This document shows positions 1,145 through 42,265 of a stretch of DNA of 43,153 bases, piece by piece; positions within the stretch are counted from its first letter, which is position 1, and each line of letters opens with the position of its first letter. Position numbers and translations under genes: made by a program. The stretch is from positions 1-43,153 of IMG/VR virus record IMGVR_UViG_3300036832_000686; one strand, given 5' to 3'. The stretch comes from a virus. A model generated the notes under the pieces. It did no database searches and had not been told where the DNA came from. It saw only the letters and a list, made by a program, of their open reading frames with translations.

Positions 1145-3162
1145 TGGCCGAGGAACAGATCTATGAGCCGCGCGTCGCGCCCGAACCGGCCGCCCCGATG
1201 CCGCTCGCGCGGCCCGAGGACTACGGCGCGCAGCTAGGCCAATCGCTCGGCCAGGCCGGCGATGTCGTCAACCGCGCCGCGCTCCAGCAATATACGCAGG
1301 ACCGCCAACTCGCCGCCGACCGCGAGCTCGCGCAATATGGCCTGAGCTCGGCCGTCGCCAAAGGCCAGGCCGACGAGCAGGCGCGCTACTTGCGCAACAA
1401 TCCGGCCGAGGGCGATCCCGACTATGGGCAGCACGTCGCGCAAATGCGCGACGCGCTCGAGCAGCAGGGCAGCGATCTCGTCAGCGGGATCAAAGAGGGC
1501 TCGGTGCGCCGGCACGCCGAGCAGGATTGGGGCAATTTCACCGGCACCATTTTGGGGCGCGAGGGCGATTTCGCCGAAAGCAAGCGCGTCGCCAACTATG
1601 TGCTCAACACCGGCGCGGCGCAGAACGTCTCGGCCAACACGATCCGCAATGCGCTCGATCCCGAACAAACGCTCAACAACGAGCTCGCCAGCGCCGACAG
1701 CCGGATTGCCGCAAGCCAGGTCGATCCCGAGCTCAAGAAAAAGCTCGCGCAGCAATTCTACCAGGCCGCCTATGGCTCGTACCTCGACCGGATCACGATG
1801 GGCTCGATCGGCGTCGATGGCGCGCAGGGCTCGCCGCCGAATCCGACGGCGACGATTGCGCTGATCGACAGCGGCAAGCTCGCGGGATCGGGGCTCACCC
1901 AGGATCAACTCGAGGCCGCGCGCAACCAGGCGTTCACCGAATTGCGCCGGCAACAGGCCGAGCTCCACCAAACCGACGCGGCCGAGAAAGCCCGGCTTGC
2001 CGATGACATGGGCGTCGCGCGCGCGCGGACCACGGCCGGGCTCCCCGTCACCAACCTGCCCGATCTGCGCGCGCGCGCCTTGAAGCTCGGCGACAATTCG
2101 ACGGTCGCCGACGTCGAGAACATGGCGCGCGACAGCGCGTTCCAGCACTCCTACGAGACGACCGAGCCCGCGCAGATCCAGCAGCGGATTACCGCCTTGC
2201 AGGCCGTCCCCGAGGCCAAGCGGACCGACGACCAGCACGCCGAGCTCAAATATCTGACCGAGCATCAGGAGACGCTCGCCTCGGGCTACAACGACGACAC
2301 GGCCGGATGGTACTTGAAGCACGGCGCCGGCGCGACCAAGCCGCCGCCGCTCGATCCGGCCGCGCTGACGCCGCAGGACTTGCAGCGCCGCGCCGACTGG
2401 CGGCGCCAGCGCTCGATCGCCGCCGGCCGCGACGTGCCGATGTTCACCAAGGACGAGGCCAGCCAGCTGCGCGCCAATGCCGAGGCGAACCCGCAGGGCG
2501 AATACCAGCTGGCCGAGCGGCTCTCGCACCTTGGCGGCCGCGAGGCGATCAACGCGGCGCGGTTCGTCGATCCGTCGAACGCGATGCTGCAACAATTGGT
2601 TGTCGTGCCGCCGGGGCGGATCGGGCTCGTCGGCGACGGCGCGGCGACGCGCAAGGAATTCCCGCAGCTGGTCGACGTCGGCGAAAACGAGGCGATGGCG
2701 CGCGACGAATTTTTGAGCCACGCCGGCAATGCCTTTGGGCTCCTGCCGCCCGCGCAAAGCAATGCCGTGTTCGAGATCGCGCGCAGCCTCTACGCGCGCG
2801 CCGCAATCAAGAATGGCTGGCAGAGCTTCCGGCCGAGCAATTTTACCCCGTTCATCGACGCCGCGCTCGACCAGCACATTGGCGACTGGAACGGCAGCAA
2901 GGTGATTCTGCCGTGGGGCTATGACGAGACGCGGTTCAACAAGCTGCTCGGCGGCTACGAGCCGAGCGCCAATACCCAGGTCACGCCCTACTATCCCAAC
3001 GGCCAGAAGATGACGGGCGACCAGCTGCGCCAATACACGCCGCGGCTTAGGCCTGATGGCTGGTATCAATTCATGGGGCCCGGCAACACCGTCGTCAAAA
3101 CCCGCAGCGGCGACGTGTTCAAATGGCAACCGTCGGCCGTGCCCAGGCCGGGGCAGCGATGA
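1144..3162 (+). CDS. Internal virion protein, T7 gp15-like (copy 1)
   Basis: A 672-residue soluble, largely helical protein rich in Gln, Ala, Asp and Arg, without signal peptide or membrane segment. ATG 1144 overlaps the previous stop (TGATG) and is conserved in the partial second copy at 42265. Length is close to T7 gp15 (747 residues), which builds the internal core and the periplasmic part of the ejection tunnel; the order gp13-14-15-16 supports the same role here. Conserved blocks shared with copy 2 include YTQDRQLAADREL, GDPDYGQHV, IKEGSVRRHA and NPTATIALIDSGKLAGSGLT. The stop overlaps the next start (ATGA). Confidence 0.7.
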   Translation: MAEEQIYEPRVAPEPAAPMPLARPEDYGAQLGQSLGQAGDVVNRAALQQYTQDRQLAADRELAQYGLSSAVAKGQADEQARYLRNNPAEGDPDYGQHVAQMRDALEQQGSDLVSGIKEGSVRRHAEQDWGNFTGTILGREGDFAESKRVANYVLNTGAAQNVSANTIRNALDPEQTLNNELASADSRIAASQVDPELKKKLAQQFYQAAYGSYLDRITMGSIGVDGAQGSPPNPTATIALIDSGKLAGSGLTQDQLEAARNQAFTELRRQQAELHQTDAAEKARLADDMGVARARTTAGLPVTNLPDLRARALKLGDNSTVADVENMARDSAFQHSYETTEPAQIQQRITALQAVPEAKRTDDQHAELKYLTEHQETLASGYNDDTAGWYLKHGAGATKPPPLDPAALTPQDLQRRADWRRQRSIAAGRDVPMFTKDEASQLRANAEANPQGEYQLAERLSHLGGREAINAARFVDPSNAMLQQLVVVPPGRIGLVGDGAATRKEFPQLVDVGENEAMARDEFLSHAGNAFGLLPPAQSNAVFEIARSLYARAAIKNGWQSFRPSNFTPFIDAALDQHIGDWNGSKVILPWGYDETRFNKLLGGYEPSANTQVTPYYPNGQKMTGDQLRQYTPRLRPDGWYQFMGPGNTVVKTRSGDVFKWQPSAVPRPGQR

Positions 3163-6100
3163 GCGGGCCGCTTTACAACGAGGCGCGCGGCGACGCCGGC
3201 GTGCCCGTGCCATCGGTGCCGAACCCGACGCCGAGCCTGTTTCATTTCGATTGGGACGCGACCCAGGCCAGCGCCGAGGAGGGCCGCAGCCGCGCGCCGG
3301 GACGGTTCAACGAGGAGCGCGATTCGCAGCTGGCCTATGCGGCGACGCAGCTGGCCCACGAAACCGGCCAGGCGCCCGACGCCTATTACATTCCGCTCTA
3401 TGGCGAGCCGACCGCCGGCCGCCCGCAGGTCGACGAATATCATTTCTGGCAGGACTACGCGAAGCAGCCGCAATCGGTGCGCGACCGGATCGGCGTGGGC
3501 AAGGATCGGACCGATTTCGACGAGCGCTTGCGCCAGCGCTTCCAGGGCGACAAGCAGGCGCGCGCGGTGCGCAGCGCCAAAGGCGGCGCGCTCGGCAACA
3601 TTGCCGGCGGCATCGCCGGCGGGCTCGCGGATCCGATCAACCAAATCGCGATGACATTGCCCGGCTTTGGCGAATGGTGGGCGACCAAGATGCTCGCCGA
3701 GGGCGGGGTCAATGCCGCGGCCGAAACGCTCGAGACGCCCTTGCAGATGGCCGAGCAGAAGCAGCAGGGCGGGCAGATGACGCTCGGCGAGGCCGCGCAG
3801 AACATCGGCGGCGCGTTCGCCGGCGGCGCCGCGCTCAAGGGCCTGCACCTCGCCGGCGGCACCGCGGTCGACAAGGCGCTCGAGGCCAGCCAACCGTGGC
3901 GCATGGCGCAAGCGCTGCGCGTGGCGACGCCCGAGGGCAAGGTCATGCCGCCCGATCACCTCGCCGCCGCCAACGTGCTCGAGCGCGGCGCCGAGATCGA
4001 CGCGACCAATCCCTATCAGGACACCTACACCGGGATCGGCACGCACCGCGAGAAGCTCGACCAGGCGCAACAGGCGGTTGCGGCGCTGCCCGTGGCGACG
4101 CCGGGACAGTTCGCGCTCGGCGAGCGCGGGGCGATGCCGGCCGCGGCGCCTGTGGTGCCCGTGCCGCCGCGCGCCGGCGCCGGATTCCTCAACCAAACGA
4201 TCGTCGATGGGCTCAAGGCGCGCGGCCTCAGCGATGGCCAGGCGCGCGGCGTCGCCGCCGGGATCCATGCCGAAAGCCGCGGCGATCCGGCGGCGCTCAA
4301 CCGCGACGGCGGCGGCGCCGGCGCGCTCGGCATCGGCCAGTGGCGCGGCGACCGCCAAGCCGAATTGCACCGCCGCTATGGCGCGAACCCGAGCCTCGAC
4401 CAGCAACTCGATTTTCTCGCCTGGGAGCTCCACGGCGGCGATCCCGGCGGCGCGCATGTGCTCGCCGAAAGCGATCCCGCGCGCGTGCTGCAAACCTATA
4501 TCCGCGATTTCATGCGCCCGCTCGAGGGACCGCAGACCGAGCGCGACCTCGCGGTGGGGATGGATGCGCTCGGCCGCGAGGGCGAGGCGGCGCCGGCCGA
4601 GGCGGCGATCGCCAGCGCCGAGCCGCCCGCGCCGCCGCCCGAGCTCGCCGAGCCGCCGGCGCTGCAAACCGAGGCGCCGCCGCCGGCGCCGCTTGCCGAG
4701 GAGCCCGCGGCCGGCGTGCTTGGCGAGCGGCCACCCGAGCCGGCACTGCCAGGCGCGGGCGAAGAACCTTTGGCCGTGCGCGATCAGGTCATGCGCGACG
4801 GGCTCGTGCCCGTGGTGCGGCAACTCGTCGGCGACCGCTCGCAATCGCTCGCCAATGTGCCGCGGCTTGCCGAGGATCTCGGCGTGTCGCCGGGCCAGCT
4901 GCACCGCGCGCTCGAGGAGCTCGTGACGAACGGCGAGCTCACCAGCAACCGCGAAGCGCTGCGCCTCGAGGCCGTGCGCAACGCGCGCGCGGCGAACGCG
5001 GCATCGGGCGCCAAGCGCAAGGGCACCGAGAAAATCACCGTGCGCGCGGCGCCGATCGACGAGAGCAAAGTCGTCTATCGCCGCAAGCCGGCCTCGATCG
5101 CGCGCGGCCCCGATGACATGCTGCAATTCATCGCGCGCCAGGGCGGGATCTCCGAGGACGGCTTGAACGAGGCCGGCCGCAATCTCGGCACCAAGGGGCA
5201 CGATCTCAAGGAAACGCACCAGCAATTCGTGCCCGGCCACGGGCCGCTGATCCGCAAGGCCGGCCACTCGCTCGATGACATGGGCGAAAAGCTCTGGGAT
5301 GCCGGCTATTTCGGGCCGCCCGACGTCACGCCGCGGCCGACCGAAAACGACGTGCTCACCAAGATCAACCAGGCGCGCGCCGGCGGGAAGATCTATTCGT
5401 TCCACGACGACGCGCCCCAGGCCGCGCCCAAGGCCAGCGATTTCGTGCCGCCCGATCCGGCGAAGATCGCGGCCGATACCGCGCACGCCGCCGATTGGGA
5501 AACCTGGGATCCCGTCGCGCGCGCGCTCGGCATCCCCGACAACCTGACGCTGCGCGAGATCGCGGAGACGCGCGAGATCATGGCGCGCGGCATCGGCGAT
5601 CTGCCACCGTTTGAAGGCGTCGAGGCGACCGCGACCGCCGAGGAGCTCGCGCCCTACTTGCAAGCCTTCGTCAATTCCGAGATAGGAACGGGCAATCGCG
5701 CGGTTGACGAGGATCTCAACGCCGGCGCGATCGACACCGAGGATCATACCTATGAGCACTATGCCGCTGCCGCCTCTGCCGGCGACGCCGCCGCCGACCG
5801 CGGCGGATCTGGACAACCTGCGCCAGAAGCTCCCGCTCCTCGAGAAGCTCTCGCAGGACAGCCGGGCGACACCGGAGACGCGCGAGCGGGCGAAAGTGTC
5901 GCTGGCGCGGGGCAAGCGGGCGCTGTTCCTGGCGGAGAGCGTTTACCCGGAGCTCAAAGCCCCGAGCTCCCCGGCGCCCGAAATCCCGATGGGCGCACCA
6001 GCGCCGAGCAGGATCTAGCCGAAGCCGCGGGCGAGCTCGGCCCGCAAATCATCGACGAGCAAGCCCTAAAGCAATTCGATGACCCAGGCGGCGAAGGCGT

Positions 6101-7124
6101 CGCCAAGGCCGGCGAGGATGCCTGGCACGATATTCGCGCGGCGCGAGAAGCGGCGCCCAAGCCGGCCAAGCGCGCGAAGGGCGATGAGAATCCCGTCGTG
6201 CGCCGCGGCGATCGGATCACGGTTTCCGAGGACACGGGCTATCTCAAGGCCGGCGAGAGCTACACGATCGACCGCGGCAACAAAAAAGAGGCCTATTTCC
6301 AGAACGAGCGCACGGGCGCCGGCACGCATCTTCAGAACTGGCAGATGAAGCAGGCGCTCGAGAAGGGCCACATCACGATCGAGCCGCCCGAGGCACCGAC
6401 GCCGGCGGCCGAAAAAACCAACATGACCCTAAGCGGCAGAGCCGAGAACGAGGCAAACGGCTACACGGCCGCCGACGTGCCGCCGATGACCGCGGGCATG
6501 CGCGCGACCGTCGAGCGGATCGACGGCAACCCCGGCAGTCAGGAGACAATTCTCGGCGCGATCGAGCGCGGCCTCATTCCCGATGGTGACATGCTGGCAA
6601 ACGGCTCGCCGCGATGGGCGCTCGAGAAGGGCTTTGCCGATATCGGGCCAACCGAGAGTGGGCGCAAAGGCCGCATTACCGACGCCGGCCGCGCCAAGCT
6701 CGCCGAGCTCCGCGGCGAAGCGCCGCCGGCCGAGGCGGCGCCGCCGCGCCTCGAGCCGCCAGCAGCCGAGCCCGCCGCAGCGGGGGAAGCCGCGCCGCCG
6801 CCGACGCTCGATCTCGGCGAACAGGTCGACCCGAACCTCGCCGCCAAGCAGCGCCAGGAGCTTGACCTCGCCGCGCAGCAGCCGCTTCGCGGCGGGCGCA
6901 AGACCGGCGCGGCGCAGGAAGAAACGCTTCCCGAAGGCCTGTTCGGCGGCAAGATCGAACCCGAGCTCCTCGATCAGCTATCGGCCAAAGGGCACGCGAT
7001 CGACCTTGGCGACGGCAAGGGCCTCAGGCCCGTCGAGGAGATCGACGCCGAGCTCGAGGCCGAGGCGAAAGCAATCGACACGATCGAGAGCTGCCTGTTC
7101 CCGATGAAGGGGGGCGCGCCATGA
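3159..7124 (+). CDS. Large internal virion protein with peptidoglycan-cleaving domain (T7 gp16 N-part-like)
   Basis: A 1,321-residue protein, start ATG 3159 overlapping the previous stop. Residues about 340-455 form a phage-lysozyme/transglycosylase-like domain: a helix ending in GIHAESRGD (probable catalytic Glu) followed by GALGIGQWRGDRQAELHRRYG, then an all-helical tail. This suits local opening of peptidoglycan during DNA entry, as done by T7 gp16. Residues about 540-605 resemble a winged helix (PRLAEDLGVSPGQLHRALEE). Ala/Pro/Glu-rich linkers lie at about 480-535 and 1,185-1,230. Between 5752 and 6018 this frame becomes low-complexity and loses GC at third positions, exactly where another frame looks coding (see the nested gene). 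A second gene at 7121 appears to carry the rest of the gp16 role. Confidence 0.72.
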   Translation: MSGPLYNEARGDAGVPVPSVPNPTPSLFHFDWDATQASAEEGRSRAPGRFNEERDSQLAYAATQLAHETGQAPDAYYIPLYGEPTAGRPQVDEYHFWQDYAKQPQSVRDRIGVGKDRTDFDERLRQRFQGDKQARAVRSAKGGALGNIAGGIAGGLADPINQIAMTLPGFGEWWATKMLAEGGVNAAAETLETPLQMAEQKQQGGQMTLGEAAQNIGGAFAGGAALKGLHLAGGTAVDKALEASQPWRMAQALRVATPEGKVMPPDHLAAANVLERGAEIDATNPYQDTYTGIGTHREKLDQAQQAVAALPVATPGQFALGERGAMPAAAPVVPVPPRAGAGFLNQTIVDGLKARGLSDGQARGVAAGIHAESRGDPAALNRDGGGAGALGIGQWRGDRQAELHRRYGANPSLDQQLDFLAWELHGGDPGGAHVLAESDPARVLQTYIRDFMRPLEGPQTERDLAVGMDALGREGEAAPAEAAIASAEPPAPPPELAEPPALQTEAPPPAPLAEEPAAGVLGERPPEPALPGAGEEPLAVRDQVMRDGLVPVVRQLVGDRSQSLANVPRLAEDLGVSPGQLHRALEELVTNGELTSNREALRLEAVRNARAANAASGAKRKGTEKITVRAAPIDESKVVYRRKPASIARGPDDMLQFIARQGGISEDGLNEAGRNLGTKGHDLKETHQQFVPGHGPLIRKAGHSLDDMGEKLWDAGYFGPPDVTPRPTENDVLTKINQARAGGKIYSFHDDAPQAAPKASDFVPPDPAKIAADTAHAADWETWDPVARALGIPDNLTLREIAETREIMARGIGDLPPFEGVEATATAEELAPYLQAFVNSEIGTGNRAVDEDLNAGAIDTEDHTYEHYAAAASAGDAAADRGGSGQPAPEAPAPREALAGQPGDTGDARAGESVAGAGQAGAVPGGERLPGAQSPELPGARNPDGRTSAEQDLAEAAGELGPQIIDEQALKQFDDPGGEGVAKAGEDAWHDIRAAREAAPKPAKRAKGDENPVVRRGDRITVSEDTGYLKAGESYTIDRGNKKEAYFQNERTGAGTHLQNWQMKQALEKGHITIEPPEAPTPAAEKTNMTLSGRAENEANGYTAADVPPMTAGMRATVERIDGNPGSQETILGAIERGLIPDGDMLANGSPRWALEKGFADIGPTESGRKGRITDAGRAKLAELRGEAPPAEAAPPRLEPPAAEPAAAGEAAPPPTLDLGEQVDPNLAAKQRQELDLAAQQPLRGGRKTGAAQEETLPEGLFGGKIEPELLDQLSAKGHAIDLGDGKGLRPVEEIDAELEAEAKAIDTIESCLFPMKGGAP
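5752..6018 (+). CDS. Small gene nested in another frame inside the gp16-like gene
   Basis: An 88-residue frame fully inside the 3159-7124 gene. It begins with ATG 5752, eight bases after a good ribosome binding site (GAGGA, 5739-5743), and ends with TAG at 6016-6018. In this frame nearly every third codon position is G or C, the genome's coding signature, whereas the host frame loses that bias here. The product is balanced and helical: a proline-rich start (MPLPPLPATPPPT), then a charged segment (LDNLRQKLPLLEKLSQDSR, then TRERAKVSLARGKRALFL), then a proline-rich end. No family recognised. Alternatives are a pair of compensating frameshifts in the large gene, or a former separate gene whose neighbours became fused. 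Confidence 0.55.
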   Translation: MSTMPLPPLPATPPPTAADLDNLRQKLPLLEKLSQDSRATPETRERAKVSLARGKRALFLAESVYPELKAPSSPAPEIPMGAPAPSRI

Positions 7125-9595
7125 GCATTAGCGTTTGCGTGCAAGGCCTCGTCGACGAGGGCAAGATCAACAAGGGCGACGCGGCCGAGGCCGAGCGGCT
7201 CTACAATTTCCACTATCACACGCTCAAAGGGCAGATGGGCTCGAGCGCGGCCGCGACGCTGGCGAGCGAGCGCGCGATCGCGGCGATGAAAGCGCAGCTG
7301 GTGCGCAAGAAGTACGTCGCCGGGCTCGCGGTCAAGGCACGCCAGCGGATCGCCGGCGAGCTCGACAGCTACAACGGCGGCGCGGCCGCGCGCGACGGCA
7401 AGCCGATCGATCCGCGCGCCGGCGTCGCGCTGTTCGGCGGCGACGATCGCGCCGAATACTCGAATCTCGAGGGCCGCAAGGGCGCGATCGAGGCGCGCAT
7501 GTTCGCCGGCATGAACAAGCTCCTCGAGAAGTTCTCGAGCGGCACGCTTGGCCGCGCACGCAACAAGGCCGAGCTCGAGAACGTCGGGCGCGAGGCATTT
7601 GGCACCAACACCGGCGACGAGTCGGCCAAGGAGCTCGCAAGCGCCTGGCTGCAATCGGCCGAATACGGGCGCCAGCGGTTCAACGCGGCCGGCGGCGATA
7701 TCGGCAAGATGGAGAATTGGGGGCTCCCCGTGATCCATGACAGCCGCGCCGTGCGCAAGGGCGGCTTCGATGCCTGGGCCAAGGCGATCAACGCCAACGC
7801 CGACCGCGCCAAGATGATCGATCGCCGCACGGGCCAGCCTTTCACCGACGACGCATGGAACGCGATGCTCAAGGAGGAATTCGCGAAAATTCGCTCGGAA
7901 GGCTGGTCGCACCGCGAGCCTGGCAGCGCCGCCGGCCCCGGCTCGCTCGCCAACCAGCGCAGCGAGGAGCGGTTCTTTCAATGGAAGGATTACGACCATT
8001 GGAAGGCCTACAACGACGAATTCGGCAAGGGCAACGCCTACGATGCGATGGTCGGCCACGTCCGCGGCATGGCGCACGATATCGCGCAACTCGAGATTCT
8101 CGGGCCGAACCCCGAGGCGACGATCAAGTGGCTCAAGGACACGATCACCAAGAGCGCCGAAATGGATCCGACGCCCGACAGCAAGGCGCCCGACCGGGCG
8201 CATAGCGCGGTCAAGAAAATCGACCGGATCATGGACGAATTCACCGGCGCGGCGCGGCGCCCCGAAAACCGCACGCTCGCCGCGGTGGGCTCGGCCGTGC
8301 GCTCCTGGCAGACCGCGGCCAAATTGGGCGGCGCCTTTCTCTCGACGCCTTCGGACGCCGCGTTCCAGTTCTCGACGCGCAAGTTCAACGGGCTTCCGGC
8401 GGCGAAGATGCTGCCGCAATATCTCAAGCTGATGACCTCGCGCGGCAGTCAGACCGAGCTCGCGCGCGCCGGGCTGATCGCGCAGCGCTGGCTTAGTCAC
8501 ACGGGCGGCCAGTCGCGGCACCTGGGCGAGGAGCTCACCGGCGAATTTTCCAAGCGCCTGGCCGAAGGCGTCATCCGCTCCTCGGGCCTCGCGCGGATCA
8601 CCGATGCCGGCCGCATGGCCTTCGGCGAATCGATGCTCGGCGCGATCACCGACAATTCGGTCAAGACCTGGGACAAGCTCGATCCCGCGTTCCAGCGCAT
8701 GTTTGAGCGCAACGGCATCCGCGAGCCGCAATGGGACGCGCTGCGCAAGACGCCGCTCGAGATGATGGGCGGCGTGCCGTGGATCCTGCCTACCAATGTC
8801 GAGGATCACGCGCTCGGCGATCGCGTGCTCGAGATGATCGACCGCGAAACCCGCTTCGCCGTGCCCGAGCCCGACCTCGCAACCAAGGCAATGATGAGCC
8901 GCCCCGGCGCGCCGGGCACCGTCGCCGGCGAATTGTTCAAGTCGGCGGCCTTGTTCAAGGCGTTCGGCGTCGCGGCGACGGCGATGCAGGCGCACCGGAT
9001 CGCCGTGCGCGCGGCGAGCTCGAAAGCGGGTGCGGCGCGCTATGCGGCGGGGCTCGGCATCGGCACGACGCTGATGGGCGCGCTCAGTCTGATGCTCAAG
9101 GACGCGATCACCAGCGGGCAGGATCCGCGCGCGGCCGGCGCGACGCCGTTCACCGATCCCAAGACCGGCGAGCTAACGCTCAATCCGGGTTTTTGGGGGG
9201 CCGCGGCGGCGCAGGGCGGCGGCGCCGGCGCGCTCGGCGATCTGCTCAAGAGCTCGCAGGGCCGCGCCGGCAACCTCGCCGAGACGGTCGCCGGGCCGGT
9301 CGTGGGCGACGTCGGGCGCCTGGCCGTGCTGCCGAACTCGACGAACCCGGCCGGCGACGCGCTGCGGCTCGCGCGCAGCGAGCTCCCCGGCGGCTCGCTG
9401 TGGTACACGCGGCTCGCGTTCGACCGGATGCTGGCCGATCAGATTCAGGAAGAAATCGACCCCCACTATGCGCGCTCGTGGCGCCGCATGGAGAAGGGCG
9501 CGCGCGACAAAGGCACCGAATTCTACTGGCACCCCGGCGACATGCTGCCCGAGCGCGCGCCGGATCTGAGCAACATTCGCAAGGGAGATCGGTAA
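7121..9595 (+). CDS. Large internal virion / ejection protein (second part of the gp16 role)
   Basis: An 824-residue protein starting at ATG 7121, overlapping the previous stop by ATGA. It is soluble and helical, with Ala/Gly-rich hydrophobic stretches near residues 605-665 (GLGIGTTLMGALSLML) that could insert into membrane. Position between the lysozyme-domain protein and the tailspike, and the size, suggest it supplies the C-terminal part of T7 gp16, which crosses the inner membrane and helps pull DNA in. That split is an inference: no signature motif identifies it, and a capsid-borne protein of other function is possible. The last codons overlap the tailspike start as TAATG. Confidence 0.6.
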   Translation: MSISVCVQGLVDEGKINKGDAAEAERLYNFHYHTLKGQMGSSAAATLASERAIAAMKAQLVRKKYVAGLAVKARQRIAGELDSYNGGAAARDGKPIDPRAGVALFGGDDRAEYSNLEGRKGAIEARMFAGMNKLLEKFSSGTLGRARNKAELENVGREAFGTNTGDESAKELASAWLQSAEYGRQRFNAAGGDIGKMENWGLPVIHDSRAVRKGGFDAWAKAINANADRAKMIDRRTGQPFTDDAWNAMLKEEFAKIRSEGWSHREPGSAAGPGSLANQRSEERFFQWKDYDHWKAYNDEFGKGNAYDAMVGHVRGMAHDIAQLEILGPNPEATIKWLKDTITKSAEMDPTPDSKAPDRAHSAVKKIDRIMDEFTGAARRPENRTLAAVGSAVRSWQTAAKLGGAFLSTPSDAAFQFSTRKFNGLPAAKMLPQYLKLMTSRGSQTELARAGLIAQRWLSHTGGQSRHLGEELTGEFSKRLAEGVIRSSGLARITDAGRMAFGESMLGAITDNSVKTWDKLDPAFQRMFERNGIREPQWDALRKTPLEMMGGVPWILPTNVEDHALGDRVLEMIDRETRFAVPEPDLATKAMMSRPGAPGTVAGELFKSAALFKAFGVAATAMQAHRIAVRAASSKAGAARYAAGLGIGTTLMGALSLMLKDAITSGQDPRAAGATPFTDPKTGELTLNPGFWGAAAAQGGGAGALGDLLKSSQGRAGNLAETVAGPVVGDVGRLAVLPNSTNPAGDALRLARSELPGGSLWYTRLAFDRMLADQIQEEIDPHYARSWRRMEKGARDKGTEFYWHPGDMLPERAPDLSNIRKGDR

Positions 9596-15042: not shown

Positions 15043-15291
15043 TCATGCCGGCGGTTTCCAGAACTTGCCGTGAAGGGCTGTGCCAGCCTTCGCGGGGGGA
15101 TAGCCTTCCTCGACCAGCCAGGCGGTCCAGGCATTGATCGGCGGCCGGTCGCCAGCAGCCTTGCGTGCGGCCAGATAGTCCAGCCCTTCGCGTTCCCATC
15201 CGTAGGGCGGGCGCGCATTGGCCCAATTGTCCTTGGGCATGAGCGCCGCGCTTAACAGATCTGCGATGATCTCGGCCGGATCTGTGCTCAT
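15043..15291 (-). CDS. Hypothetical protein, last gene of the partition-integrase operon
   Basis: An 82-residue protein starting at ATG 15291, overlapping the integrase stop by ATGA. Acidic start (STDPAEIIADLLSAAL), then an aromatic-rich part (RPPYGWEREGLDYL, INAWTAWLVEEGYPP). No recognised domain and no membrane segment. Coupling to the integrase suggests a role in recombination or lysogeny, but nothing in the sequence proves it. Confidence 0.6.
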   Translation of the reverse strand: MSTDPAEIIADLLSAALMPKDNWANARPPYGWEREGLDYLAARKAAGDRPPINAWTAWLVEEGYPPAKAGTALHGKFWKPPA

Positions 15292-16523
15292 GCCGCCGCC
15301 TCCAATCCAGCGGCGAGCGCGGCCGCGGTCATCGTCGCGTCGATCGGGCCATAGACCGAGAGCATCATGGCGATTGACTGTAAGCTATGGCCGGTGATCG
15401 TCGTAATCATGGCCGGGTGCATCCCGCCGCGGCGCAGGCGGACAACGCGCGTGCGGCGCAAGTCATGCCAGACGAGCTCGGTCATCTGCGGGCGGTCGGC
15501 GGCCTTGGCGGCGTGCGCGAGGATCTGCGACCAGGCCGCGGTGAAGCCGCGCTTGGTCCAGGACAGGCCCGTGCGATCGTCGACAATGACATGGGTTAGC
15601 AGCCGCGGCGGGCTCGCAGCGCGATCGCGCGCGCGGTTGGCGGCGATCGCGAGCTCGACCTTGCGGCGCAGCTGCGCAGCGAACGCGATTTCCAGCTGAA
15701 CGGCCGGCTTGCCCTTGGTTTTTTTGCTCTGCGTCACCGACCAGCCCATGACCTTGCCGGCCTCGTCGGCGAAGGCCGCGCGCACGCCGGGATCCGCAAT
15801 CCGAAACGCGCGCCAGTGCCCCTCGGTAAAGGCGATCAGATCCGAGCGGCGCTGCGCCGAATAGATCGCGAGCTCGCAGGCGAGCGCCATCGACGGGCGG
15901 CCCAGGTCATAGGCGGCGGCGATAAATGCGGCCTCGTCCTCGTGCTCCCAGACATGCGACCGCGGCGGCGGCGCCGGGAGTCCAAAGTCCACAGCCGGAT
16001 TCGGCTCGAGCTTGGCGAAAGCGAGCAGCTGGCGCAGCATCTTCAAGCAATTGAACGCGGCCGCATGGCCGATGCCGCCGGCCTCCTTGGGCGGCGCGAG
16101 CTTGTCGCGCAGCGCAAGGACGCGCGCCGGCGTGATCCACGAGAGCGGGCGCGCGCCGGCCCAGGCCTCGAGGCGCTTGAGGCTGGTTTCATAGGTTTCG
16201 ATCGTCTTGGGCTGCAAGGCCGGCTTGCCCGTGGCGACGCAGCGGCCGGCGAACACTTCGCGGCGATAGCGCGCGGCCAAGGCTGCGAGCGTGCCGGCCT
16301 CGAGGCGGCCGGCGACGCCTTCCGGCCCTGCCCCGCCCTGGCGCCAGGCCGCGATCGCGGCGTTGCGCGCCTCGGCCTTGACGATCGCCGCGCCCTTGTC
16401 CTTGCCGAGCGCGAGCGCTTCCCATCCGGCATCGAGCAGCGTCTTGCTCGGCCGCCAGTACCAGCTGGTTTCGCCGGCCTTGTTGGTGACGGGCCGCAGC
16501 CCGTTGATCTTGAATTGTGCCAT
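15288..16523 (-). CDS. int: Tyrosine recombinase (phage integrase)
   Basis: A 411-residue integrase. ATG 16523 (MAQFKINGLRP) is chosen over a longer open frame because it lies just after the upstream stop. N-terminal part: arm-type/core-binding region with helices at about 90-190 (TIETYETSLKRLEAWAGA). Catalytic domain: first Arg near 225 (YSAQRRSDLIAF), His353-Asp-Leu-Arg356 (HDLRR), His379 (TGHSLQS) and nucleophile Tyr391 (MLSVYGPID). These are the expected R-H-R-H-Y residues. It would integrate and excise the element at an attachment site or resolve multimers of a plasmid form. It lies in the same overlapped operon as ParA, which is unusual and leaves open whether its main job is integration or dimer resolution. 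Confidence 0.9.
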   Translation of the reverse strand: MAQFKINGLRPVTNKAGETSWYWRPSKTLLDAGWEALALGKDKGAAIVKAEARNAAIAAWRQGGAGPEGVAGRLEAGTLAALAARYRREVFAGRCVATGKPALQPKTIETYETSLKRLEAWAGARPLSWITPARVLALRDKLAPPKEAGGIGHAAAFNCLKMLRQLLAFAKLEPNPAVDFGLPAPPPRSHVWEHEDEAAFIAAAYDLGRPSMALACELAIYSAQRRSDLIAFTEGHWRAFRIADPGVRAAFADEAGKVMGWSVTQSKKTKGKPAVQLEIAFAAQLRRKVELAIAANRARDRAASPPRLLTHVIVDDRTGLSWTKRGFTAAWSQILAHAAKAADRPQMTELVWHDLRRTRVVRLRRGGMHPAMITTITGHSLQSIAMMLSVYGPIDATMTAAALAAGLEAAA

Positions 16524-16524
16524 A

Positions 16525-16821
16525 TTACCCCCAGGATGCGGGGCCGCGCTTGTGGCGGCCGTCGGCCTTTTTCTGGCCCGGATAGAGATTTTCGTGGAAC
16601 GCGGGATCAAGCTTGCGCTCGAGCTCGCGGCAGTCGGCGACGTGGCGCCGCAGCGCCTTTGCCATGTCGCCCAGGAAACCATCGTGCAGCGTCGTTTGCC
16701 CCGCGCAAAGGCGCACGACCGTCCGCTCGTTGACGGCGAGCTCGCGCGCGGCGACGCGCGTGCCGCCGATCGCGCGCACCGCCTCGCGGAATAGGTCCAG
16801 TTGGGTAGCGGGATCGGTCAC
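16525..16821 (-). CDS. Small helix-turn-helix protein
   Basis: A 98-residue protein with a helix-turn-helix at about residues 14-40 (VRAIGGTRVAARELAVNERTV), a lambda-repressor/XRE-like pattern. A basic C-terminus (GQKKADGRHKRG) may contact DNA. It ends one base before the integrase start and overlaps the preceding gene by ATGA. Possible roles are directionality factor for the integrase, or a regulator of this operon. No larger CI-like repressor was found in the window, so it is also a candidate lysogeny regulator. Confidence 0.65.
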   Translation of the reverse strand: MTDPATQLDLFREAVRAIGGTRVAARELAVNERTVVRLCAGQTTLHDGFLGDMAKALRRHVADCRELERKLDPAFHENLYPGQKKADGRHKRGPASWG

Positions 16822-41278: not shown

Positions 41279-41828
41279 ACTGACCTTCTCGCGCCTCGAG
41301 GCGGCCGACATGCTCGCCTTGCAAGCGGGGCGCAAAAACCGTGTCGTGTTCGGCATGCCCGTGGTTGCGACGCGCGAGGAGGCCCAAGCGATCGCGAGCG
41401 AGCGCGTCGCCTGGGCCGCGCGCGTTGTCGGTCCTGGGGGCGCCAAGCTGATCGGCTGCTTTGGCATCGTCGAGCACTTTGCCGGCGTGCACGGGCTCGC
41501 ATGGGCGATGCTCGCCGATCGCCTGGGGCCTGCGCACTTGCCGCTGACGCGCTTCGTTGCCAGCGCCATCGCGGCTTGCGGCCTGCCGCGCCTCGAGCTC
41601 CTCGCGCGCGGCCCCGACCTCGAGGCCGTGCTCGCGAAGTGGCCGGCGCTCGATCCCGGCCAGATCGTCGCGCTCGCCGAGGCGCGGCCAACCCCGGAAA
41701 TGCGGTGGGCCAGGCTGCTCGGGATGGTCCCTGCGCATGTGCTGCGCTTCTACGGCGGCGCCGCCGAGACGTTTATCTTGTTCGAACGGCGCGATCGCGG
41801 CGCGCTCCAACACAGGGAGGCGGCCTGA
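41271..41828 (+). CDS. Internal virion protein, T7 gp13-like (copy 2)
   Basis: A 185-residue protein starting at GTG 41271 inside the end of the nozzle gene, in the same arrangement and length as copy 1 at 147-704. Differences are scattered substitutions plus compensating small indels: three residues gained near AARVVGPGGAKL and three lost near WPALDPGQ. The DUF2833-like region is kept, so both copies look intact. It is coupled to the gp14-like gene by TGATG. Confidence 0.72.
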   Translation: MRELTFSRLEAADMLALQAGRKNRVVFGMPVVATREEAQAIASERVAWAARVVGPGGAKLIGCFGIVEHFAGVHGLAWAMLADRLGPAHLPLTRFVASAIAACGLPRLELLARGPDLEAVLAKWPALDPGQIVALAEARPTPEMRWARLLGMVPAHVLRFYGGAAETFILFERRDRGALQHREAA

Positions 41829-42265
41829 TGGATCCGGTTTCGGCAGGCCTCAAAGTCGCGGGCGGGCTCGTCAAAGGCATCGGCGGGATTGCCGCGGGGC
41901 GCCAGCAGCAACAGGCGCTCGTCGAGCAGGGCCGCCAGCAGAACATCGCCGGCAATCTGCAAGCGACGCGGATCCGCGAGCAGGCGCGGCGCGCGATCGG
42001 CCAGCAGGTCGGCGGGCAATTTGCCAACGGCTTTCAAGGGGGCAGCGGCTCGGCGCTCGATGATCTCGCCGAAAGCCAGACCAATGCGACGCTCGATGCG
42101 CTGCAAGCGCGGCGCGATGCCGCGACCAAGGCGCAAAGCCTCTATGCGCAGGGCAACTTGGCGCGCCAAGGGGCCGGGTTTAGTGCGCTCGGCGACGCGA
42201 TCGGCACGGGCAGCGACCTCTACGGCATGAGCCAGGACTGGGCGCGCGCGCAGGCGCCAAGCTGA
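41828..42265 (+). CDS. Internal virion protein, T7 gp14-like (copy 2)
   Basis: A 145-residue protein. The first 60 residues are nearly identical to copy 1 (704-1144), including the Gly/Ala hydrophobic start; the last third diverges (ARQGAGFSALGDAIGTGSDL here). It is one codon shorter. TGATG overlaps occur at both ends. Role as for copy 1, inferred from T7. Confidence 0.68.
   Translation: MDPVSAGLKVAGGLVKGIGGIAAGRQQQQALVEQGRQQNIAGNLQATRIREQARRAIGQQVGGQFANGFQGGSGSALDDLAESQTNATLDALQARRDAATKAQSLYAQGNLARQGAGFSALGDAIGTGSDLYGMSQDWARAQAPS

Follow-up and report, generated by a model that had tools for sequence, protein, structure and literature searches.

A small gene, very probably protein-coding, nested out of frame in the lysozyme-bearing ejection gene of a podophage

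Introduction

Can a phage gene for a large ejection protein carry within it, one base out of register, a second and complete gene of its own? The question is raised by nucleotides 5752-6018 of the virus record IMGVR_UViG_3300036832_000686, whose entire 43,153 bases were analysed and are referred to below as the window (W). The original prediction for this locus offered two readings of an 88-codon frame found there: a true nested gene, or an ancestral trio of genes whose outer members had become fused through read-through of the middle one.

Nested +1 genes in phages are already known, the kind of host gene being what differs here. As passages of PMC6139136 describe, the small spanin gene Rz1 is fully embedded in the +1 frame of the larger Rz, and annotation often misses embedded spanins. 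The window resembles the Rz/Rz1 pair of phage lambda in having a small gene wholly inside a larger phage gene and in its +1 frame, but its host gene encodes a 1333-residue, lysozyme-bearing ejection protein and not a short i-spanin, and its nested product, unlike the o-spanin Rz1, has no cysteine and hence no lipobox; an embedded o-spanin was rejected as its identity on these two grounds. To our knowledge, fully nested genes kept across broad sets of tailed phages are rarely documented outside the spanins, and a search of largely open-access literature other than bioRxiv preprints found no description of this one. The arrangement merits attention since a nested ORF in an ejection-module gene is present in many viral contigs as well as in genomes of Sphingomonas, and ordinary annotation misses such genes; if expressed, they would add a new component to podophage ejection modules and provide a natural series for the birth, retention and loss of overprinted genes.

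The host gene and the nested frame

The window has matches to an integrase, a head-tail adaptor, a major head protein and internal virion proteins, and the features on which the analysis turns are as follows.

3123..7124, + strand: host gene, 1333-aa large ejection (internal virion) protein, named gp16-like here (phrog_9570, 3e-18; Pfam Phage_lysozyme2, 1.6e-13)
4194..4532, + strand: lysozyme domain of the host protein, residues 358-470 (Pfam)
5739..5743, + strand: Shine-Dalgarno (SD) sequence GAGGA of the nested gene, 8 nt from its ATG
5752..6018, + strand: nested gene, 88 codons and 88 aa, in the +1 frame of the host gene (ATG at 5752, stop TAG at 6016-6018)
5752..5955, + strand: conserved core of the nested gene, 68 codons, with a Pro-rich N-terminus and two helices (residues 17-34 and 41-64) predicted by AlphaFold2
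6075..6134, + strand: host anchor motif FDDPGGEGVAKAGEDAWHDI, shortly after the nested stop, a landmark common to the relatives
7121..9595, + strand: next virion gene, gp17-like (phrog_684, 6e-142), the bait for finding relatives

The family phrog_9570 is described as a tail length tape measure protein, and the true start of the host gene is probably at 3159 (MSGPL), as in the near relatives L003 and L005. The order of small virion genes, a gp15-like gene, a gp16-like gene and then a phrog_684 gene is shared with the epsilon15-like phages phiV10 and BcepC6B, whose phrog_684 relatives are about 28-29% identical; their gp16-like genes differ from that of the window in lacking the anchor motif and any clear nested ORF. 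Elsewhere in the window, an integrase family match (phrog_1, 15288-16682, minus strand) suggests that the phage is temperate, and the internal virion protein family phrog_418 has two separate matches, one near each end (704-1144 and 41501-42265), the pattern that circular permutation of the recorded genome would give.

The segment 5752-6018 is a complete start-to-stop ORF within another gene and in a different frame, and the coordinates confirm the 88 codons and the GAGGA eight bases before the ATG that had been predicted. Its codon usage is distinctive. GC at the first, second and third positions of the nested frame is 0.72, 0.50 and 0.92 around position 5880, where that of the host third position drops to 0.50. 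Over the nested stretch host GC3 is 0.562, against 0.868 +- 0.033 expected from synonymous redraws of the host codons (z -9.4), and the most extreme 89-codon GC3 window of the entire host gene begins at codon 879, the nested ATG being at codon 876. The frame-specific codon statistics proposed at the outset as a check thus bear out the claim that the genome's codon-position signature moves to the nested frame between its limits. So too with the low-complexity Gly/Ala/Pro sequence claimed for the host frame in the overlap: the host protein over the nested gene is a Gly/Ala/Pro-rich acidic linker, itself conserved in places (YEHYAAAA, QAGAVPGGERLP). The same drop in host GC3 is found in four relatives described below (L003, z -12.2; L004, -7.3; L009, -3.4; L016, -2.5). 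The openness of the +1 frame in the window was rejected as evidence, for 95% of redraws preserving host protein and codon usage are open as well; in the window, chance fails to explain the codon signature, the retention of SD and start or the conservation seen in relatives, though it does explain the bare open frame.

Near relatives of the window

The host gene occurs at 49-60% protein identity in three IMG/VR contigs, L003 (also entered as L001, L006 and L008), L005 and L004, in which the host frame is continuous over 1312, 1297 and 1492 aa, respectively. All three have the nested frame at the equivalent place, with an ATG and an SD (GAGGAG in L003 and L005, GGGGA in L004), and its product in L001 shares 66% identity with that of the window across 79 residues (E 2e-27 in a search of that 10.7-kb locus). 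L003 and L005 bear one metagenome number and have nearly equal nested sequences, so that only three lineages are represented, the window included. These two contigs are near-identical around the nested gene, but the N-terminal halves of their host proteins differ strongly, as recombination might produce.

Selection was gauged by our own simple pairwise count of nonsynonymous and synonymous changes in each frame, modelled on the idea of OLGenie. Between W and L003, the ungapped 68-codon core shows higher identity in the nested frame (0.72) than in the host frame (0.66), with a dN/dS of 0.50 for the nested frame (Z -2.4) and 0.63 for the host frame (Z -1.6), the Z values here and below being guides since pairs within a cluster have a common history. 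Over 63 codons of the core in W and L004, identity is 0.59 nested and 0.41 host, with a nested dN/dS of 1.00, and the L003-L004 core gives a nested dN/dS of 1.36. Pooled over four pairs, the nested dN/dS of the window group is 1.00 versus 1.03 outside, an uninformative result, and restricting the test to the ungapped core then favours the W-L003 pair, not those with L004. Silent divergence in the group is.21 inside and.30 outside the nested stretch, a modest dip that is not the lowest window of the gene. When W-L003 was compared with 105 control windows, nine had host-silent divergence as low, six a nested dN/dS as low, and one had both. In the window group, the case for a gene rests on codon signature, start and conservation, with selection statistics adding only partial support.

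A recurrent slot in wider relatives

With the phrog_684 protein of the fecal phage record L009 (MT835618) as query, 80 IMG/VR loci were collected. L009 has a +1-frame ORF with the same GC switch at the homologous place, and a large second group of loci has +1 ORFs in the same gene, mostly of 80-110 residues and with a common core of approximately SDEQLxxAxxxGxxLAMLDALSMLQRK. (The names 'marine', for this second group, 'terrestrial' and C1 to C7 are our labels only and are not based on contig habitats.) A profile of the second type matched 58 nested ORFs at E < 1e-3 among the loci collected to that point. Fifty-seven lie inside host genes, L032 having been set aside as not assigned to the +1 frame of the host gene, and no free-standing copy was seen among the 58. 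Scanning the collection with a seven-sequence alignment of this type returned 76 loci, many on contigs already in the set; the host frame is unbroken across the nested ORF in 75 of them, the 76th stopping at a contig edge.

The nested stop adjoins a conserved host motif, F-D-D/E-P-x-G (FD[DE]PxG), present in 83 of the 92 host-like proteins examined. An ORF of at least 55 aa that starts with ATG and ends near the motif occurs in the +1 frame of 72 of these 83 genes and in the +2 frame of none (0/83), counts that do not represent independent events since near-duplicate loci (L098/L017 and L099/L016) are among them. Two of the 72 (L038 and L102) appear spurious, with an identical Arg-rich sequence that continues past the anchor, and L031, at 53 aa, falls just under the length limit yet is window-type-like. 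No convincing nested ORF was found in nine motif-bearing genes (L013, L019, L022, L024, L025, L030, L034, L040 and L101).

Attempts to link the nested products by sequence gave mixed results. Profile comparison failed to connect the window type with the second type (hhalign probability 0.1), and a window-type HMM built without L009 does not recover L009 at E up to 10; the window-type HMM recovered L021 independently (E 7e-4) and L031 weakly (E 3.1). The two main product types are alike in place, frame, size and helical character, with no detectable sequence similarity.

Three loci are on genome contigs, from Sphingomonas parapaucimobilis NBRC 15100 (L098), S. sanguinis NBRC 13937 (L099) and a Novosphingobium MAG (L100), and in each the module includes a nested ORF ahead of the anchor, which suggests that the hosts are sphingomonads; the regions concerned in L098 and L099 are prophage-like. 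An unannotated +1 ORF with a second-type-like motif, matched by the HMM at an E of only 2.7, occurs at 7407-7694 of L010 (NC_023841, Dunaliella viridis virus SI2), with a GC3 of 0.58 in the host frame and 0.79 in the nested one; this genome is recorded with an algal host yet has this ejection module.

The nested product and its possible role

The product in the window is small, predicted to be helix-rich, and has zero cysteines in its 88 residues, and therefore no lipoprotein signal. Scans of Pfam, PHROGs and NCBIfam gave no accepted family match for nested products (0 PHROG and 0 Pfam families for that of the window); one of 16 members reached 0.0036, the lowest Pfam value, which was not accepted. 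Nor did tblastn find a match in isolated phages to the host or nested protein of the window, or to one second-type nested protein. AlphaFold2 models the window product as two helices (17-34 and 41-64; mean pLDDT 75.9, pTM 0.48) and a second-type product as a short and a long helix (mean pLDDT 72.0, pTM 0.42), and a Foldseek search of the PDB with the two-helix model was not informative (best E 0.9).

The nested protein may be real yet have no place in the virion, serving late as a regulator or chaperone that would bind the nascent host protein or act on the cell; this reading is a serious possibility, if short of an even chance. In all ten genes listed the nested product has a net positive charge (+2 to +12) and the host segment beneath it a net negative one (-1 to -12), which counts in favour of this reading, but the charge contrast is partly automatic because acidic codons are read one base later. 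The want of an accepted family match also fits such a role, while co-location with a virion gene favours, without showing, a place in the virion.

A virion role has a possible model in phage T7, whose gp6.7, as passages of PMC11784390 describe, is an 88-residue core protein that bridges the portal and the core and is ejected. The window product, like gp6.7 and gp7.3, belongs to a phage with large ejection proteins and falls in the same length class of small proteins, a likeness of size and ejection context. The T7 proteins are encoded by separate genes, unlike the nested gene here. By this analogy, and because the product has no lipidation cysteine and its host gene encodes an ejection protein, we tentatively propose that it may be an ejection-core accessory of small size, produced alongside its large partner; a chaperone or regulator not bound to the virion has about the same probability.

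Probable internal initiation of translation

An SD with at least four matched bases precedes the nested ATG in 14 of 27 representatives, taken from 64 loci, compared with 93 of 1184 other out-of-frame ATGs; in L009, L016 and L056 the assigned ATG lacks an SD. Every one of the 64 starts is ATG, as the assignment rule required M.

Programmed frameshifting, by which the +1 frame would serve as an alternative C-terminus of a truncated ejection protein, could draw on the openness of this frame upstream of the ATG, over 22 codons in the window and 141 in L003. Against it, the +1 frame does not stay open upstream throughout the relatives: an in-frame stop lies one codon before the ATG in L048, L049 and L089, which leaves little room for a frameshift and argues for internal initiation, and within 12 codons in 29 of the 64 loci. 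With an SD at many nested ATGs besides, we consider frameshifting very improbable. Ribosomes would instead begin internally on the ejection-protein mRNA, at the SD and ATG of the nested gene, as its anatomy implies.

Frame-specific selection

In the wider relatives, with pairs hand-picked from each cluster and not all pairs taken, divergence at host fourfold sites is much lower inside than outside the nested ORF (C1,.05/.31; C1b,.21/.44; C2,.14/.51; C3, the L009 type,.16/.47; C5,.09/.45; C6,.24/.62). No control window of equal length had host-silent divergence as low (C1, 0/86; C1b, 0/89; C2, 0/87; C3, 0/91; C5, 0/83; C6, 0/96; C7, 0/140). Nested dN/dS also falls below the value outside (C1,.38/.81; C1b,.39/.75; C2,.64/.80; C3,.32/.84; C5,.26/.71; C6,.43/.90; C7,.75 vs.96). 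The host dN/dS within the overlap is 0.17-0.49 in these clusters, host amino-acid changes being avoided, and in 20 of 27 representatives the chance of the +1 frame being open is below 0.1. The purifying selection on the small frame that the original prediction had named as a check is therefore seen in six clusters of relatives (0.26-0.64) and in the W-L003 core, and is not seen when all pairs of the window group are pooled.

Silent-site suppression alone cannot separate protein from RNA, but an RNA element or codon-usage artefact, with silent sites constrained by RNA structure or a signal, is most improbable in view of a constraint that depends on the nested codon frame (dN/dS 0.26-0.64 against flanks of 0.71-0.90 in six clusters), of nested ORFs that are open where chance openness is < 0.1, and of the lack of any Rfam match at the gathering threshold in 5400-6300.

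The first of the two readings originally offered, a true nested gene, is thus supported by the codon signature, the conserved SD and ATG, the preservation of both frames in three relatives and, in wider relatives, selection specific to the frame. On this evidence, 5752-6018 very probably encodes a real protein, from a gene that lies in the +1 frame within a podophage gene for a large lysozyme-bearing ejection protein and is internally initiated. The host linker would tolerate the second reading, codon choice there following the nested frame.

Origin of the arrangement

The second reading was that an ancestral gene trio had fused, or that two sequencing indels had joined the frames, making the host frame across 5752-6018 accidental. 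It has in its favour the low complexity of the host frame and the sharp switch of codon bias at both ends of the nested ORF, and a stop-loss route to embedded genes is proposed for spanins in passages of PMC6139136. Nevertheless, the host frame runs unbroken in the window, in L003, L005, L004 and L009 and in 75 of 76 further loci, its segment under the overlap is conserved in places and, in the wider clusters, selected against amino-acid change, and a relative with three separate genes was met nowhere among those examined. Homologs with the large protein continuous through the other frame, which would have pointed to indels, were not what we found; they are continuous through the host frame, which refutes an indel artefact, and the trio fused by read-through is left unsupported. 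We judge fusion or indels extremely unlikely.

Overprinting of a linker in a pre-existing gene, with losses or repeated gains, would fit better than a three-gene fusion because the host gene is continuous in every relative met and nine motif-bearing genes have no convincing nested ORF. The arrangement appears to be old, with the same slot directly before FD[DE]PxG and the same frame in sphingomonad phages and in the large second group of podophages. It is conceivable, though we would not put it at even odds, that a long-lived 'nested-gene slot' before this motif runs across most of the branch, filled in each clade by unrelated-looking products that derive from one very old, diverged gene or from repeated overprinting, with a second, 3' nested gene in some members.

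A second +1 ORF of 62 aa, with an SD-like upstream sequence, lies near the 3' end of the ejection gene (L065:6640-6828) and occurs in ten loci (L065, L048, L049, L058, L066-L069, L087 and L088). In four pairs, its host-silent divergence is 0.197 inside versus 0.451 elsewhere, and its nested dN/dS is 0.57 versus 0.68.
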